IMG/VR virus record: IMGVR_UViG_3300006919_000001
Coordinates: 19,396 to 83,395 of that record
Origin: a virus
Reading direction: 5' to 3' (one strand)
DNA length: 64,000 bases
The notes below the pieces were generated by a model. The model did not search any database and had not been told where the DNA came from. It was given only the letters and a program-made list of their open reading frames with translations. Made by a program: the position numbers and the translations under genes. This document shows, piece by piece, positions 11,406 to 60,132 of this stretch; position 1 is the stretch's first letter; each line of letters starts with the position of its first letter.

Positions 11406-11476
11406 CCGTCGGTGTGGGAATCGAACCCACGGTCTTTTACTGTACTGTAAATGCTCTACCTTTGAGCTATCCTCCG
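11406..11476 (-). tRNA. tRNA-like element 2
   Basis: 71 nt with a canonical D-arm (GCTC-AAAGGTA-GAGC) and perfect T-arm (GTGGG-TTCGATT-CCCAC). The acceptor pairs CGGAGGA with ACCGACG but contains a tandem G-A/A-G mismatch and an A-A. The anticodon stem TTTAC/GTAAA is perfect, but its loop has six bases (AGTACA) rather than seven and lacks U33, so no anticodon can be assigned. CCA is not encoded. It is either a decayed tRNA or a specialised tRNA mimic. Confidence 0.55.
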
Positions 11477-40839: not shown

Positions 40840-40871
40840 CTAGGTTCGTATCAAAAAATTTTGTAACTTTG
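40840..40871 (+). promoter_or_regulatory. Plus-strand phage promoter
   Basis: Plus strand CTAGGTTCGTA, 13 bases, TAACTTTG, an exact fit in spacing. It points right, into the region of the 28-aa minus-strand gene, so it would make an RNA antisense to that gene and to the 3' end of the 263-aa gene. Confidence 0.75.
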
Positions 40872-41010: not shown

Positions 41011-41802
41011 TTATATCTTTGATAATCTCTCTTGTTCTTTTTTAAGGTCTTTCTCCAAGTAAGCTATTCTATTTACTATATGAGTAGACTCTTCCATTGC
41101 TCGGTCAATTGTTTTCTCATTGGTATCCACTATCCATTGTTTATAAACCTCGTATGAACCTTGAAATATTTCATCCCTATGGTCTTGTGGAAATTCACTC
41201 CAGTTATCATTTGTGATAAATCTGTTGGCATCATTCGCATTGATATACTCAATCCAATCTTCTCTAGTGAGTTTTGATAACATATCAGATTTCACATAGG
41301 CATTTTTAATATGCTTTTCCAACCTTGAAATATCATCCATCTTTCTCTGTTTCTTATTTTTCAAAGCAATCACTTTCTTAATCTCCTTAGCCAATACCAT
41401 ATTCCCTGTTTTAGGAAGGTTCGTTTTGGTTAGATATCTATAGTGGTCTCTCTGAATATACCCTCCAGCTATAATTGCTTCGGTTGAAAAACTATATCTC
41501 TTTCCACCTCTTTCAATTTCTCCAGTCATTTCAAAATTACCTTTTACTGAGGTACCAGCATTGAACCATAATAACATATCATCTTCATTGGTGTAGCTAA
41601 TAATGCTTTTGCATATATCATGTATCAATTGTAATTCAATACACTCTTTACCAAACTCGGTAACTGGCATTGCATTTTTTTCTGACTCCATCCATTTAAT
41701 AGTGCTTTCAATTTTTTTCTCAATCTGAGGCTTCATTGAATTTAACACGTTCTTTAACACTTGGTTTTTCGAAGACTCGATGTACTGGTTTGTAAATTTC
41801 AT
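41011..41802 (-). CDS. Hypothetical 263-aa helical protein
   Basis: Lys/Glu-rich, probably largely helical (NSMKPQIEKKIESTIKWME, RIAYLEKDLKKEQERLSKI). Contains ISYTNEDDMLLWFNAGTSV. No catalytic motif; could be structural or DNA-binding. It has its own promoter upstream (41825-41856). Confidence 0.6.
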   Translation of the reverse strand: MKFTNQYIESSKNQVLKNVLNSMKPQIEKKIESTIKWMESEKNAMPVTEFGKECIELQLIHDICKSIISYTNEDDMLLWFNAGTSVKGNFEMTGEIERGGKRYSFSTEAIIAGGYIQRDHYRYLTKTNLPKTGNMVLAKEIKKVIALKNKKQRKMDDISRLEKHIKNAYVKSDMLSKLTREDWIEYINANDANRFITNDNWSEFPQDHRDEIFQGSYEVYKQWIVDTNEKTIDRAMEESTHIVNRIAYLEKDLKKEQERLSKI

Positions 41803-44126: not shown

Positions 44127-44183
44127 ACTTTCTCTTGATATATTTTCAGGAAAGTTCTTTGTTTACTTGATTTTTTTTTTTTA

Positions 44184-44253
44184 AAAAAGTTCGGTGGAGT
44201 CCAGTCTTCCGGAGTTGGCGTTACTCCCGGCCCTTGTCACCTCTCGGTTTTTA
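44184..44253 (-). ncRNA. GC-rich structured element
   Basis: About 70 bases of unusually high GC downstream of the 34-aa gene. On the minus strand several stems can form, including CCG-GAGT/ACTC-CGG around loop AACGCCA with one bulged base. Outer segments (ACCGAGAGGTG with CACCGAAC) can pair too, and a run of Ts follows. It could be a complex terminator, a small RNA or an mRNA 3'-end structure. Confidence 0.5.
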
Positions 44254-45040: not shown

Positions 45041-45232
45041 TTACCTTATGTTAGGTCTTCCAACAAATTCGCCTTCATCATTATATTTCCAAGTCTCGGT
45101 AATGTGACAATCGTCACTGAACGCCTCCTTTATACCCATCCATTCATCGCGCGCCTCTTGTAAGGTCTTGTGACCATCTGATGAGTACTCATCGCCTTCG
45201 TTATCCTTGTAGTTAAAATCGTAAGTTGCCAT
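45041..45232 (-). CDS. Hypothetical 63-aa acidic protein
   Basis: Begins MATYDFNYKDNEGDEYSSDG and is strongly acidic and aromatic. It is driven by the promoter at 45261. Possibly a DNA mimic or host-protein inhibitor; inference from charge only. Confidence 0.6.
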   Translation of the reverse strand: MATYDFNYKDNEGDEYSSDGHKTLQEARDEWMGIKEAFSDDCHITETWKYNDEGEFVGRPNIR

Positions 45233-45260: not shown

Positions 45261-45292
45261 TAAAGATACCTATAATAATTGGTTCCACTTAC
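45261..45292 (-). promoter_or_regulatory. Phage promoter (variant)
   Basis: Minus strand GTAAGTGGAAC, about 13 bases, TATCTTTA. It drives the 63-aa gene and overlaps, back-to-back, the plus-strand promoter at 45333. Confidence 0.7.
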
Positions 45293-45343
45293 TTTTTTCT
45301 ATTAATATTTAAAGAAAAAGTTTTTTATAAAAGTCGAGGTTAT
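45291..45343 (+). repeat. 53-bp direct repeat, copy A
   Basis: Identical to 45835-45887. It begins ACTTTTTTCTATTAAT and ends AAAAGTCGAGGTTAT, leading straight into a plus-strand -7 box. The conserved block therefore contains the upstream part of a promoter. Confidence 0.85.
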
Positions 45344-45366
45344 ATGAATTCTTTTACGTATCTTTA
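45333..45366 (+). promoter_or_regulatory. Plus-strand promoter of RNA cassette 1
   Basis: Plus strand GTCGAGGTTAT, 15 bases, TATCTTTA. It points into the structured region 45372-45488. Its upstream half is the 53-bp direct repeat. Confidence 0.65.
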
Positions 45367-45371
45367 TGTAT

Positions 45372-45488
45372 GCCAATAGAGGCACAGAGCAAGCGAGCAA
45401 AGCTGAGACGTAGACGGCGCTGATCCCTATACCGAGATTTTTAAAACAGAGTGGTCCTTCCGCTCACTCTTTGTATGATTCGCTCCCG
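45372..45488. ncRNA. Structured RNA cassette 1, flanked by inward-facing promoters
   Basis: About 117 bases of higher GC with no good ORF in either strand. A left promoter (plus) and a right promoter (minus, 45494-45525) both point into it, so both strands could be transcribed over the same segment. A hairpin AGAGTG / CACTCT lies near its right end. Likely a regulatory RNA pair or decoy; its function is unknown. Confidence 0.55.
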
Positions 45489-45493
45489 ATGTA

Positions 45494-45525
45494 TAAAGAT
45501 ACCATTAATAAATGGTTCCTCCTAC
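45494..45525 (-). promoter_or_regulatory. Right-hand promoter of RNA cassette 1
   Basis: Minus strand GTAGGAGGAAC, 13 bases, TATCTTTA. It points left into cassette 1. It lies directly downstream of the 59-aa gene. Confidence 0.75.
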
Positions 45526-45550
45526 ACTTTTCTCATTTATTTTTAAATGA

Positions 45551-45730
45551 CTACCACTCTGTTATTTTACTCATACTGCTTACTCTTACATTTTGACCCT
45601 CAGGTGAGGTCATGAAGTAAGTTCTTTCTGAGCAATGTGCTCCAACTTCTTGAAACTGTCTGTAACCGTGATTTTTATATCCTTGTAATTTTAATTCGTT
45701 TACTGTTGATGTCTGTGTTACTTTTTTCAT
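45551..45730 (-). CDS. Hypothetical 59-aa protein
   Basis: ATG at 45728-45730, stop TAG at 45551-45553. The peptide MKKVTQTSTVNELKLQGYKN, then RTYFMTSPEGQNVRVSSM, has one Cys and a small alpha/beta composition. It is driven by the promoter at 45760. Confidence 0.6.
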   Translation of the reverse strand: MKKVTQTSTVNELKLQGYKNHGYRQFQEVGAHCSERTYFMTSPEGQNVRVSSMSKITEW

Positions 45731-45759
45731 GATATTTGGTTTTAATTATTTCTTCTATC

Positions 45760-45791
45760 CAAATATACCATATATATAGGTATGAACCTAC
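45760..45791 (-). promoter_or_regulatory. Strong phage promoter
   Basis: Minus strand GTAGGTTCATA, 13 bases, TATATTTG, upstream of the 59-aa gene. It diverges from the plus-strand promoter at 45878. Confidence 0.8.
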
Positions 45792-45834
45792 ACCTTTCTC
45801 ACATTTCTTTTTCGACACATGGATTTTTTTAGCT

Positions 45835-45887
45835 ACTTTTTTCTATTAATATTTAAAGAAAAAGTTTTTTATAAAAGTCGAGGTTAT
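45835..45887 (+). repeat. 53-bp direct repeat, copy B
   Basis: Identical to 45291-45343; again it leads into a plus-strand promoter and a structured cassette. The two cassettes themselves differ in sequence. Confidence 0.85.
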
Positions 45888-45910
45888 GTGAATTATTTAT
45901 TGTATCTTTA
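45878..45910 (+). promoter_or_regulatory. Plus-strand promoter of RNA cassette 2
   Basis: Plus strand GTCGAGGTTAT, 15 bases, TATCTTTA, pointing into 45916-46010. Confidence 0.65.
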
Positions 45911-45915
45911 TATTA

Positions 45916-46010
45916 TCATAAGAGCTACACTCCCAAGGGGAGAGGGAACCCTGTATTGAAATATTTGGATATAGGGTTCGGTGTGATTACTACCTGCCCC
46001 GGACCTCCTT
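45916..46010. ncRNA. Structured RNA cassette 2, flanked by inward-facing promoters
   Basis: A strong central stem GAACCCTGTAT / ATATAGGGTTC with a 12-base loop, a small hairpin CTCCC-AAG-GGGAG, and outer segments ACAC/GTGT that could enclose them. No ORF. Promoters at 45878 (plus) and 46016 (minus) both point inward, as in cassettes 1 and 3. Confidence 0.6.
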
Positions 46011-46015
46011 CAATA

Positions 46016-46047
46016 TAAAGATACCATTTATTCCTCACATATCCTAC
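46016..46047 (-). promoter_or_regulatory. Right-hand promoter of RNA cassette 2
   Basis: Minus strand GTAGGATATGT, 13 bases, TATCTTTA, pointing left into cassette 2. Confidence 0.7.
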
Positions 46048-46064
46048 AAAAATCGGATTTATTT

Positions 46065-46103
46065 AAACAAGAAAAACCCCACAGATTTCTCCATGGGGTT
46101 TTT
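46065..46103 (-). terminator. Intrinsic terminator of lipoprotein gene
   Basis: Minus strand GAAAAACCCCA, a 12-base loop, TGGGGTTTTTC: a strong stem with a T-run, ten bases after the lipoprotein stop. Confidence 0.9.
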
Positions 46104-46112
46104 CAATACTAT

Positions 46113-46640
46113 TTAATCAAACGGGTTTCCACCAGGATCTGGAGGTCCAGTTATTGCTGAAAAATCAGTTTCTGAAGATACCATTTCTTTAAACTCATCA
46201 TCGGAATTAAAAGCCGAGATTGTAAAGATAGCGGTTCCTTTCATACTTTGTGGAATATCCACATAAATTAAACCTTTCTTTTCAATAAACTTTTCTTCAT
46301 AAGTTGCATGAACTGCTCCGCTCTTATTTAAGATAATTACTTCAAGTACATAATAACAATACTTGTCCCAAGGCTGACGGTCAACATCTAGTTCTGCAAC
46401 TAGGTGTCCAGCCGAGGCTCTGGTTACACTAATAAGTGTCAAATCATAATTACCTTGTGAACCAGGGTATACCGCAGTACTCCATGGACCATAGTAACAA
46501 GAAGAGCCGGGATTATCCATAGTGCTACTTTTCGTAATCTCAGTTTCAAAAACCGATTGGTCATCCATCTGGATTGACTCATCTTTACTACAGCTGGACA
46601 TTCCAACCATAAGTACTAATAATAATAATACTTTTTTCAT
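46113..46640 (-). CDS. Phage-encoded lipoprotein
   Basis: 175 aa counted from the internal ATG that gives MKKVLLLLVLMVGMSSCSKD, a lipoprotein signal with lipobox GMSSC; upstream codons of the longer frame lie in the leader and are unlikely to be translated. The mature part is beta-rich (YDLTLISVTRASAGHLVAEL) with a Pro/Asp/Gly tail (GPPDPGGNPFD). Surface lipoproteins made early are typical superinfection-exclusion or phage-resistance factors. It has its own promoter (46862), a structured leader and a strong terminator. Confidence 0.75.
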   Translation of the reverse strand: MKKVLLLLVLMVGMSSCSKDESIQMDDQSVFETEITKSSTMDNPGSSCYYGPWSTAVYPGSQGNYDLTLISVTRASAGHLVAELDVDRQPWDKYCYYVLEVIILNKSGAVHATYEEKFIEKKGLIYVDIPQSMKGTAIFTISAFNSDDEFKEMVSSETDFSAITGPPDPGGNPFD

Positions 46641-46861
46641 AAGCGTAATAGTATTTGCCTCGGGTTCGAGGACTTTATTATCCACCGGAATTATTTCCAA
46701 TGGTGTGATACAAATCAAAATGTCAAATAACTTATAAAAATGATGGTGCCAATGTACTTTTTCTATGGAAGGTTTGTTTCAACCGATTCACCATCATTGA
46801 GAAAATCCGCTGGTTCAGTTCCGGTTTTGACTCCGTTTCACACCTACCCTATTTCCTTACA
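46641..46861 (-). promoter_or_regulatory. 210-nt structured leader of the lipoprotein gene
   Basis: The untranslated region between promoter 46862 and the lipoprotein ATG. It contains a long stem ATGATGGTG / CACCATCAT followed by TTTTTATAAG, which looks like an intrinsic terminator (46734-46796). It also contains a hairpin CCTCG-AACC-CGAGG near the start codon. A 21-codon open frame (MMVNRLKQTFHRKST, ending PSFL) spans the terminator-like stem. The design suggests transcription attenuation of the lipoprotein. Confidence 0.55.
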
Positions 46862-46893
46862 TAAAGATAATGAAAATATCCTTTGTAACCTAC
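46862..46893 (-). promoter_or_regulatory. Phage promoter for lipoprotein gene
   Basis: Minus strand GTAGGTTACAA, 13 bases, TATCTTTA. It diverges from the plus-strand promoter at 46937. Confidence 0.8.
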
Positions 46894-46936
46894 CTTTTTC
46901 TAAAAAACTTTTAAATAAATCTTTTTTACTAAATGT

Positions 46937-46968
46937 GTAGGTTGGTATTATAATTTTTTGTATCTTTG
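46937..46968 (+). promoter_or_regulatory. Plus-strand promoter of RNA cassette 3 (consensus)
   Basis: Plus strand GTAGGTTGGTA, 13 bases, TATCTTTG, a near-perfect family member on the strand opposite to the genes. The best evidence that cassettes are transcribed rightwards. Confidence 0.85.
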
Positions 46969-46974
46969 GTTATA

Positions 46975-47092
46975 CGCAATAAGACGTGGGCTGGAGGGCA
47001 TATCAACTCCAGAAGAGTAGACCTGACTGAACCTCTGTTTGTAAAATCTGAGGTGTGCAATCAGTTGCCCCTTGAGGCATTGTATCAAATCC
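46975..47092. ncRNA. Structured RNA cassette 3, flanked by inward-facing promoters
   Basis: About 118 bases without an ORF. Stems visible: CTGGAG / CTCCAG; a two-part helix ACTGA-ACCTC ... GAGGT ... TCAGT; and GCC / GGC near the end. The left promoter (46937, plus) and the right promoter (47098, minus) both point inward. Confidence 0.6.
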
Positions 47093-47097
47093 TTACA

Positions 47098-47128
47098 TAA
47101 AGATACAAAAAAATCCTTTGAAACGCAC
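47098..47128 (-). promoter_or_regulatory. Right-hand promoter of RNA cassette 3
   Basis: Minus strand GTGCGTTTCAA, 12 bases, TATCTTTA, pointing left into cassette 3. Shares the AAGGAT spacer start with 46862. Confidence 0.6.
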
Positions 47129-47130
47129 AT

Positions 47131-48185: not shown

Positions 48186-48737
48186 TTATTTCTTTAATAT
48201 CTTTTTGGTTACTGTATATCCTTCTACTGTTCTTATGATTGCCATATAGATTCCAGTGGATAGATTGTCCAGCATTACCTTATTCTTTCTTGTTGTTGTC
48301 CTAAAATCTTTTACTAGCTTTCCACTTAATGTGTAGACCTCGATTGATTGTATTCCATCTCCTTCTATGTAAACGTATCCTTCACTTGGAGTTGGCCATA
48401 GTTTGAAGTCTCTGTTTGCTATCGGAACCATTGGTACACTTAATACCTCTCCTCTTATCTCTAACCATGCTGAATCGCATCCAAGAATTATCTCTCCTTC
48501 ATTTAGTATTTCTCCTATTACAATTATATGTGCATTGAGAATCTCTAAGGTGAACCCGTTCATATCTAGATTACCCTGAATGGTTATCTCGAAGTCATCG
48601 GTTGAATCACATGCGTTTCCATATGTATAATTTGCTTGCATTACTTCTATTTGGTTGGCAACCTCTTCTCCATTCTGTCTTTGACTAAATGATAGTGTGG
48701 TGCTTACTAGTAATAGTATTGTAAGTAATCTCTTCAT
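48186..48737 (-). CDS. Secreted protein with T9SS type A C-terminal sorting domain
   Basis: 183 aa. The N-terminus is a signal peptide (MKRLLTILLLVSTTLSFSQR). The C-terminal 75 residues have the type A sorting-domain pattern of Bacteroidota: FKLWPTPSEGYVYI, IQSIEVYTLSGKLVKDF, LSTGIYMAIIRT, VTKKILKK. Such domains direct cargo through the type IX secretion system to the cell surface. The middle part (residues about 25-105, with CDSTDDFEITIQGNLDMNGF) is a small beta domain. A phage gene using host T9SS could modify the host surface. Confidence 0.82.
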   Translation of the reverse strand: MKRLLTILLLVSTTLSFSQRQNGEEVANQIEVMQANYTYGNACDSTDDFEITIQGNLDMNGFTLEILNAHIIVIGEILNEGEIILGCDSAWLEIRGEVLSVPMVPIANRDFKLWPTPSEGYVYIEGDGIQSIEVYTLSGKLVKDFRTTTRKNKVMLDNLSTGIYMAIIRTVEGYTVTKKILKK

Positions 48738-57813: not shown

Positions 57814-60132
57814 CTACGAAAAAAACCAGTCTGAGTTTTTCAGTTCATCAATCCCCTTCTCCAAATCAAACCCTCTAAACGATGGAACCTCGACTTTACT
57901 TAACTCTTTCTGTATCTTAGATTCTCCAGATACCTGAGCCCTAAGCTCCTTGTCAAGCGTGTAGAGAGGCTTTCTCTTAATTAACTTATTGAACTCCTCC
58001 TTTGTAATATCTAGCATCACATCCACGTAATTTGGATGACACCCATATGAGTCATGAATCCAATCCGAATTTTCAATACCAGCCTTCTTCATCTTCATAG
58101 CCACTCTCCTTAGTAATTCAGCATCCAGTGCGTGAATATAATTTGGAGATATTGCTGACCGCATCTTAGCTGGAGAAACCCTTTTTGAAAACGTTTTCTT
58201 ACTAATGGTTACCCTTGACCTAGAGCCCGGCAAGGTACATAGTATTTGCCTTGACTTTAATTCCTTATTCTTTTTGTGTTCCACATAGAATCCATCATCG
58301 GTCGTCCACGTTACCTTACAATCTCCTCTTGAGATTAAATTACACATTCGTTGTACATATACCTCAAAGGCTTTACCGCCGTTTAAAACGCCTTGTATTG
58401 AGTCTCCAATTATCTTGGAGAATAATGCCGCGTTCTTCTTGGTAATCCACTTGTGTTCACATTTCAATTCCCTAAACATCTGCCATAGAATTTCAGCCCT
58501 ACCCTGAGCAGTTCCACCATAGTTGGAAACCATTGTAGGTTGCTTGCATATCTTTCTTCCATGCTCTGATAACAAATCTCTTAGAAATTCTAAGATTTCT
58601 CTCTCCGCTTTGTCATTGGACTGTATGATGCGTTTTTTAGTTTCCTCAATTGATTTCTGAGCCACCAACATATACGCATCCTGTCTTAGTATTTCACCAT
58701 CCTCATCATAAGTTGGCATCACATTAGTTGCTAGACATCCAGCTTTATCACCGGTGATGGCGCTAGTAAATTGAGAACCACTATTGCAGGCATCCAAATG
58801 TATTCTAGTATTTGGTGTATACATTCTATCATTCTCCCATTCATTCAATTCGATTTGGTGAGATAGGAATTGGTACGGTTCATCTGCTTCCATATAATCC
58901 GCATCAATCAAGTCTTTGCCTCTTTCAACTCTTTCTTCAAATGGTAATTTATCATCTCCATATAAACTTGCAAGGTATGCCCAATTCCATTCTGTACCGG
59001 CACTGGTTGGAGCCTCAACCTCTTTATACAATAGAAGCGCCTTAACAGCATCGGAGCCTTGAGGTGACAAACCAACTGGTAGCGGATAGATTCTTCCTCT
59101 AAAGTCATAAGAATGCGGAAAGTATAATACCTCCTCATCTTTATATCTATCAGCTATTCCAACAGCCAACTTTACGGCCCTATATTTACCGACCGCGCTT
59201 TCATAATCTCCCTTTTCCGCATTGTACAATTCAATCTGCTCCCTCGTTCTTAACCTTAGTTCTATAATCTCATTTTTCTTTTCCTCAGACATTTCCACAT
59301 CTTCCTCTAAGTCTTTTTCCCACACACATCCCCCCATCTCTGGAAATTCAGTATGGATGAAGTCGCTTTTTTTAGGGACACTAAGGTCTCTCTTTAGTTG
59401 GGCCAAAACTACTTTATTAATAACCCATGGAGTAGACTGTATGTAGTTTAGGCTGTTGTAAATCTTTTTAGAGAATGGCTCATACTCAATTTGAGAACCT
59501 GAAGGAGACCTTACCATCTCATATTGGTAATCTTCATAACCACCAGTGATTCCTAATTCGGGGTCATAGGTCCAATCAATTGGTTTAACCAACATAGGTT
59601 GAGGATAAAATGCCTCGGCCGCCTCTATGGTTAACTTCCCGATTATGGTCTCGGATAGCGTACATCTATAATTTAACCTCCATCTGTAGGTTTCTCCTTT
59701 TCTGTCCATCTCTCTTTCCGTATGAAAGTATGAGCTATAATCAACTATAACCTCTACCACTCTCCAAACCTCATCAAAGCCCAATTCTGGCATTAACTTA
59801 TCTTGAAGTGTTTGTATTTTTCTATGGCGATTTAAACTCTCTCCCTTTTGCTTGATGTCACCGGACAATAATAACATCACCTCCACGATTCTAACCAGTA
59901 AGATTTCGTCATCAGTAAAGTAGTTCTTATAAGCCTTTCTATGCATCTTTGCACAACCGGTACTTATCCAAACTTTTACATCATCAAAGATTCTCAATCC
60001 TTCGTCTAATAATAGTCTTTTTCCAATCTGTGTTGATGAAGCCTTCTTAGTGTCAAGAAAGTCTTTTGTCATAATGCCTTTCCACACCTGCCTCTCACCT
60101 AAGCGTTTCATTTGAAGTTCGTTTACATTCAT
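57814..60132 (-). CDS. T7-like single-subunit DNA-directed RNA polymerase
   Basis: 772 aa. Motifs of the single-subunit RNAP family: SYDFRGRIYPLP (N-terminal conserved block), IHLDACNSGSQFTSA (motif A, catalytic Asp), RKICKQPTMVSNYGGTAQG (motif B, Lys and Tyr) and DWIHDSYGCHPN (motif C, catalytic Asp). It is about 110 residues shorter than T7 RNAP. It would transcribe late genes from its own promoters; candidates with a CTATAG-containing core lie at 57664, 60175 and 15303. It is preceded by one of them, suggesting self-amplifying expression. Confidence 0.95.
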   Translation of the reverse strand: MNVNELQMKRLGERQVWKGIMTKDFLDTKKASSTQIGKRLLLDEGLRIFDDVKVWISTGCAKMHRKAYKNYFTDDEILLVRIVEVMLLLSGDIKQKGESLNRHRKIQTLQDKLMPELGFDEVWRVVEVIVDYSSYFHTEREMDRKGETYRWRLNYRCTLSETIIGKLTIEAAEAFYPQPMLVKPIDWTYDPELGITGGYEDYQYEMVRSPSGSQIEYEPFSKKIYNSLNYIQSTPWVINKVVLAQLKRDLSVPKKSDFIHTEFPEMGGCVWEKDLEEDVEMSEEKKNEIIELRLRTREQIELYNAEKGDYESAVGKYRAVKLAVGIADRYKDEEVLYFPHSYDFRGRIYPLPVGLSPQGSDAVKALLLYKEVEAPTSAGTEWNWAYLASLYGDDKLPFEERVERGKDLIDADYMEADEPYQFLSHQIELNEWENDRMYTPNTRIHLDACNSGSQFTSAITGDKAGCLATNVMPTYDEDGEILRQDAYMLVAQKSIEETKKRIIQSNDKAEREILEFLRDLLSEHGRKICKQPTMVSNYGGTAQGRAEILWQMFRELKCEHKWITKKNAALFSKIIGDSIQGVLNGGKAFEVYVQRMCNLISRGDCKVTWTTDDGFYVEHKKNKELKSRQILCTLPGSRSRVTISKKTFSKRVSPAKMRSAISPNYIHALDAELLRRVAMKMKKAGIENSDWIHDSYGCHPNYVDVMLDITKEEFNKLIKRKPLYTLDKELRAQVSGESKIQKELSKVEVPSFRGFDLEKGIDELKNSDWFFS

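Follow-up and report, generated by a model that had tools for sequence, protein, structure and literature searches.

The DNA analysed here (the window, 64,000 nucleotides) comprises bases 19396-83395 of the 83,395-bp virus record IMGVR_UViG_3300006919_000001, and carries three short segments, each enclosed by two promoters that point inward. These cassettes are probably convergent pairs of distinct small RNAs (sRNAs). Comparison with other phages also brought out a structured RNA family, almost certainly real, to which RNAs of cassettes 1 and 3 likely belong, the membership of cassette 2 being uncertain. The window terminase is 69% identical to those of the Cellulophaga phages phiST, phi13:1 and phi19:2 and of Tenacibaculum phage Larrie (genus Cbastvirus), and the virus infects Bacteroidota bacteria.

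Convergent promoters and the recurrence of the cassettes

The promoter-like pattern has 13 matches in the window at three or fewer mismatches, against 0.08 expected, in agreement with an earlier note on this DNA that had proposed a promoter family with a TATCTTTR box. The boxes of the cassettes form three convergent pairs (45359+/45494-, 45903+/46016- and 46961+/47098-) and, as that note had also described, the segments between them are non-coding, without a protein-size open reading frame (ORF), and richer in GC than their surroundings. TATCTTTR is found in all six cassette promoters (Table 1) and GTAGG or GAGG stands at the right spacing in five of them, the exception being 47098-, whose upstream element is poor. 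Bacteroidota promoters are of the -33/-7, TAnnTTTG type. Those of the window resemble them in having TATCTTTR at -7 and an element about 20 bp upstream, but the -33 element is GTAGG(TTCGTA) instead of TTTG, and the related phage locus L164 differs as well, using TTTGGCTA.

The inserts of cassettes 1, 2 and 3 measure 127, 105 and 129 bp, with a GC content of 0.49, 0.45 and 0.45, respectively, compared with 0.20-0.34 in the flanks; a GC content of at least 0.45 is reached in 4.7% of 115-bp windows across 40-48.2 kb. Because promoters cluster at 42-47 kb, three convergent pairs would not be extraordinary by spacing alone, and the cassettes gain their weight from inserts that are GC-rich and non-coding and from the recurrence of the design in relatives. 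Cassettes 1 and 2 have a duplicated upstream region, a direct repeat reported earlier as 53 bp and in fact identical over 54 bp. To the left of each cassette lies a further leftward promoter serving the next leftward gene, and therefore the right-hand promoter of the cassette is not needed for that gene.

Two neighbouring genes lack relatives (none in IMG/VR or phage records for the protein of 46113-46643, and none found for 41011-41802), so that related phages were reached via the terminase. In L164, whose terminase is 71% identical, there are three cassettes, located 2.4-3.8 kb past this gene, and one or two are present in each of the terminase-related phages L156/G019, L161, L165 and Larrie. 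When non-coding promoter pairs 60-200 bp apart were compared in phage loci collected independently of the RNA, an insert with a GC content of at least 0.40 was seen in 8 of 15 convergent pairs and in none of the 23 that were divergent or tandem (Fisher p=1.3e-4), a count that takes in the three window cassettes and in which a near-identical cassette of L164 and L165 appears twice. Given this recurrence, the design is conserved even though the sequences differ greatly, as expected from the modular system envisaged in the earlier note.

A structured RNA family of Bacteroidota phages

Comparison of Larrie with phiST revealed a repeated motif, GGAAGAGTAGACTCC, behind promoters, and a scan of IMG/VR turned up numerous loci in which this motif accompanies GGGC and a variable hairpin. 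The family architecture consists of GGGC, a strongly covarying hairpin (P2) and then GGAAGAGUAGACUCC; the loop AGAGUAGAC, invariant in appearance and closed by a short stem, is carried on the variable P2. Two models were built, R1 from a 19-sequence fixed-length alignment and R2 from 78 matches. The covariation score of P2, which lies outside the GGAAGAGTAGACTCC search pattern, is 0.529, compared with 0.168 ± 0.014 for shuffles and no more than 0.06 after sliding of the partners, and 127 of its cells are changed on both sides against 38.8 ± 7.9; the stem covariation in relatives proposed earlier as a check is thus present in the wider family, the three cassettes themselves having diverged too far for this check. 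Covariation does not choose between the short stem GGA/UCC and the competing GUAG/CCUAC pairing, as both are nearly invariant. Copies found by the model alone vary in the loop, for instance GGAAGACTGGACTCC in the window. A clear member lies 1.1 kb left of the cassettes (44183-44237), with 47.1 bits and E 1.3e-11 in 14 kb for R2, and E 6e-7 for R1.

About 106 distinct copies were counted in the fetched loci, with up to 8 per phage record, and two cultured groups carry the family, namely the Cellulophaga phages phiST/phi13:1/phi19:2 and Tenacibaculum phage Larrie. The highest count is that of the L101 record (52.8 kb, G011), with eight copies on both strands. The family is nearly confined to phages: the strict pattern occurs in 60 stretches of IMG/VR and once in 84,980 bacterial and archaeal genomes, in a metagenome-assembled genome whose phylum is Bacteroidota, judging from the type IX secretion system (T9SS) sorting domain in 13/15 sampled. 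The contig of this match carries three family copies and may be phage DNA, two tested proteins not settling its origin. In 394 other genomes of the phylum the core 15-mer is at chance level (2 genomes, single matches).

Family RNAs are intergenic, are opposite to both neighbours in 13/69 cases and have no neighbouring gene in common across the loci, the frequent neighbours (DUF932, GroEL-like and SprT-like proteins) being found at few loci each; so they are not the leader of one gene family, and this candidate was rejected. A TA[TC]CTTT[AG] box stands directly upstream of 34% of the members, compared with 0-4% of control windows. At L041 and L082/L142 the RNA follows other repeated upstream elements, TTGTAACTTTTT-N-ATCGTTATA and GTATAGCA..., which are probably phage-specific promoters. 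Against Rfam 15, cassettes and family loci gave chance matches below the gathering cut-off only, and neither ARAGORN nor Rfam identified them as transfer RNA (tRNA) or transfer-messenger RNA (tmRNA). In open-access PubMed Central (PMC) text we found no paper on GGAAGAGUAGAC, on a Cellulophaga phage with a noncoding RNA or on a phage-encoded small RNA with convergent promoters.

Tail-to-tail pairs and the predicted RNAs of the cassettes

In 6/103 family loci an RNA on the opposite strand lies 54-87 nt downstream, an arrangement absent from seven sets of control windows, and several of these downstream RNAs have AAGGGUUCG-stem-CGCANAGGGUAGACUCC. Both RNAs of a pair are driven by facing promoters in Larrie and L042, and in Larrie the two strands are two separate copies of one family. 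Such pairs support the view of the window cassettes as separate sRNA genes that would meet at their 3' ends.

Pairwise alignment of the predicted cassette RNAs with RNAs of other phages (140 pairs) gave p<=0.005 in 12 comparisons, with fewer than one expected. The plus-strand RNA of cassette 3 (c3+; the others are named likewise) matches the clear family member at 33/50 positions (z 5.3) and has GGGC, a hairpin and the exact loop AGAGTAGAC. In c1+ the loop is GAGACGUAGAC, also found in L168, whose minus-strand RNA has in common with it GAGACGTAGAC (at 45405-45415) and an upstream GCAAAG (z 4.6). The sequence CGGGAGCGAATCATACAAAGAGTGAGCGGAAGGACCAC of c1- recurs in L164 cassette 3 plus, L161 and L164 cassette 1 plus (z 8.9, 5.8 and 4.5), with ATACAAAGAGTGAGCGGAAGGAC-AC in common with L164 (z 8.9) and L161 (z 5.8); an exact-motif search with c1- had L164 as the sole related phage locus, the other matches being unrelated contigs. 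A weak similarity links c2- to a Larrie family member at L032:16933 (z 4.8). Of the elements looked for at promoter distance (GGGC, hairpin and (R)AGA(S)GUAGAC loop), c3+ has the complete set and c1+ the loop, and c1- and c2- are diverged. We judge c3+ and c1+ to be probable members of the family. As far as homologues can be traced, a cassette carries different RNAs on its two strands, each with its own relatives.

Proposed role and alternative explanations

We propose that each cassette consists of two separate sRNA genes of about 50-70 nt, placed tail to tail, each transcribed from its own Bacteroidota-type promoter and meeting the other in the AT-richer centre. The RNAs would be rapidly evolving relatives of the phage-specific structured family, which has no Rfam entry. 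They would act early and in trans: a conserved Bacteroidota host factor would bind the conserved loop on its variable hairpin, and the RNA could thereby, in host takeover or counter-defence, work as a decoy or an inhibitor. Taken as a whole, from gene pairs and family relationship to protein binding in trans, this explanation has in our judgement about an even chance of being right, and the protein-binding decoy mechanism by itself is put forward tentatively. This mechanism is favoured because a loop that stays conserved while its stem changes freely is more characteristic of recognition by a protein than of base pairing with varied targets, because no complementarity to ribosomal RNA (rRNA) or tmRNA was found, and because the region resembles early accessory regions. 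A decoy was also suggested in the earlier note, directed at host transcription; the decoy role is possible, and nothing points to host transcription in particular.

Several observations weigh against this proposal. None of the six cassette strands folds clearly better than its dinucleotide shuffles (z -1.8 to +0.6), contrary to the strong hairpins described earlier. The covariance models do not recover the cassettes: R1 gives c3+ a non-significant 8.8 bits (E 1.7), R2 aligns with its 9-nt loop only, and cassettes 1 and 2 have no match, so that their link to the family would depend on the pairwise alignments, which are weak for cassette 2. The invariance of GGAAGAGTAGACTCC is partly ascertainment, most loci having been fetched by that pattern. 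Facing boxes near ordinary family members are modestly enriched (14% vs 1-10%), and 24 other relatives by terminase or phrog_16509, many of them fragments, have no R2 match. Finally, no target was found, mRNAs not having been searched.

In the earlier note the two complementary RNAs expected from the cassettes were taken to point to antisense control or double-stranded RNA; as a sense/antisense pair they might also act by mutual repression. The promoters do face each other at 105-129 bp, the centres of cassettes 2 and 3 have no strong terminator, and read-through would yield complementary RNAs, some duplex through such overlap being possible. However, the RNAs on the two strands differ and have separate relatives, two separate family copies lie tail to tail in Larrie and five other loci, and most family members have no facing promoter, which makes a role as such a pair unlikely. 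A reading of the cassettes as cis-regulatory 5' leaders of the leftward genes, with accidental plus-strand boxes, would agree with the direction of the right-hand promoters; it is very improbable given that a separate promoter for each leftward gene lies between it and the cassette, that the plus-strand promoters are full and have the 54-bp duplicated upstream region, and that both neighbours of a family member are often on the other strand. An invertible segment was also considered and rejected, the short inverted repeats being merely the two -7 boxes; no recombinase gene was seen among the proteins examined, no systematic search having been made.

Among modes of action in trans, base pairing with host or phage mRNAs, the conserved loop serving as a seed, would suit small, independent RNAs with their own promoter and a loop that looks single-stranded. 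Nevertheless, a seed conserved over so many phages requires a conserved target, and the rRNA operon and tmRNA of one Bacteroidota genome are complementary at chance level, mRNA targets not having been searched; antisense action on rRNA or tmRNA was rejected on this ground, and base pairing in general seems to us possible but rather doubtful. Among known kinds of RNA, the closest is the RNA anti-CRISPR (Racr), a small structured phage RNA behind its own promoter (PMC10651486), which acts as a solitary mimic of a CRISPR repeat. The cassette RNAs likewise would be small and structured and lie directly behind promoters, but in the 394 Bacteroidota genomes the core 15-mer was found neither in arrays nor as a repeat, diverged repeats not having been tested, and P2 varies freely, unlike a mimic of a fixed repeat; we thus regard this identity as highly improbable.

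Features and neighbouring genes

The accessory region around the cassettes is rich in small ORFs and contains many similar promoters, a composition shared with the early accessory regions of phages. The gene 46113-46643 (minus), between cassettes 2 and 3, encodes a predicted lipoprotein (signal peptide, then CSKDES), and 48186-48737 (minus) a phage protein of 183 aa with a signal peptide and a T9SS C-terminal sorting domain (PF18962, E 1.7e-9), apparently addressed to the T9SS of the host. The phage has its own single-subunit (N4-like) RNA polymerase, phrog_414, at 57814-60132 (minus). A fourth plus-strand promoter, CTAGGTTCGTA-N13-TAACTTTG (40840-40871), faces the leftward gene 41011-41802 from the side of its 3' end, and antisense transcription of that gene may result. 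Elsewhere, Rfam places a tRNA at 11406-11476 (minus; 37.5 bits) that has no ARAGORN call, and ARAGORN lists an odd tRNA at 2165-2254.

Table 1. Promoters, repeats and predicted RNAs in the cassette region (window positions; ends of cassette RNAs are predicted).
Feature	Position	Strand	Description
Clear RNA family member	44183-44237	-	GGGCCGGGAGTAACGCCAACTCCGGAAGACTGGACTCC, then T run; downstream of same-strand 34-aa ORF
Separate promoter of leftward gene 45041-45232, left of cassette 1	45261-45292	-	
Direct repeat copy 1, 54 bp	45290-45343	+	identical to 45834-45887
Cassette 1 left promoter	45335-45366	+	CGAGGTTATAT-N13-TATCTTTA
Cassette 1 plus-strand RNA (predicted)	45367-45436	+	ends approximate; start from promoter, end from T5 run
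Cassette 1 minus-strand RNA (predicted)	45430-45493	-	ends approximate; CGGGAGCGAATCATACAAAGAGTGAGCGGAAGGACCAC
Cassette 1 right promoter	45494-45525	-	GTAGGAGGAAC-N13-TATCTTTA
Separate promoter of leftward gene 45551-45730, left of cassette 2	45760-45791	-	
Direct repeat copy 2, 54 bp	45834-45887	+	identical to 45290-45343
Cassette 2 left promoter	45879-45910	+	CGAGGTTATGT-N13-TATCTTTA
Cassette 2 plus-strand RNA (predicted)	45911-45970	+	approximate; without convincing relative
Cassette 2 minus-strand RNA (predicted)	45960-46015	-	approximate
Cassette 2 right promoter	46016-46047	-	GTAGGATATGT-N13-TATCTTTA
Separate leftward promoter, left of cassette 3	46862-46893	-	
Cassette 3 left promoter	46937-46968	+	GTAGGTTGGTA-N13-TATCTTTG
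Cassette 3 plus-strand RNA (predicted)	46969-47040	+	GGGC, hairpin TGGAG/CTCCA, loop AGAGTAGAC
Cassette 3 minus-strand RNA (predicted)	47040-47097	-	approximate; without convincing relative
Cassette 3 right promoter	47098-47129	-	good TATCTTTA box, poor upstream element

Significance and comparison with known systems

The broadest form of the proposal is a phage-specific class of structured RNA, distributed across numerous Bacteroidota phages with sizes ranging from about 50 kb up to jumbo phages, in many diverged copies and tail-to-tail pairs, whose conserved loop would block a conserved host factor; we consider it speculative and, in this full form, rather improbable. If it were true, the factor blocked would be a defence component, an RNase, the ribosome or the polymerase, and these molecules would be an RNA equivalent of anti-defence proteins, without an origin in CRISPR repeats. 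The strong covariation, the several copies per genome and the near-complete restriction to phages suggest an important role in infection, of a kind invisible to protein-centred annotation, and the convergent cassettes would show such RNAs arranged and duplicated as modules. As there are cultured carriers, the Cellulophaga phages and Larrie, expression and partner are directly testable.

With the Racrs and their solitary repeat units these RNAs have in common a small structured phage RNA close behind its own promoter and no associated protein gene. They differ in that the core 15-mer matches no CRISPR repeat in the Bacteroidota genomes searched, and in that the family has a variable stem, several diverged copies per phage and convergent pairs. 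The sequence AGAGUAG, which follows a hairpin in both, recalls loop E of 5S rRNA; mimicry of this loop was set aside, since the family lacks the second strand of loop E and 5S rRNA is not recovered by R2, and is kept only as a lead. Type I toxin-antitoxin systems and plasmid copy-control RNAs also have promoters that face each other over about 100 bp, but the cassettes contain no plausible ORF, by which a type I toxin-antitoxin system is excluded, and their strands are apparently two RNAs with separate relatives.
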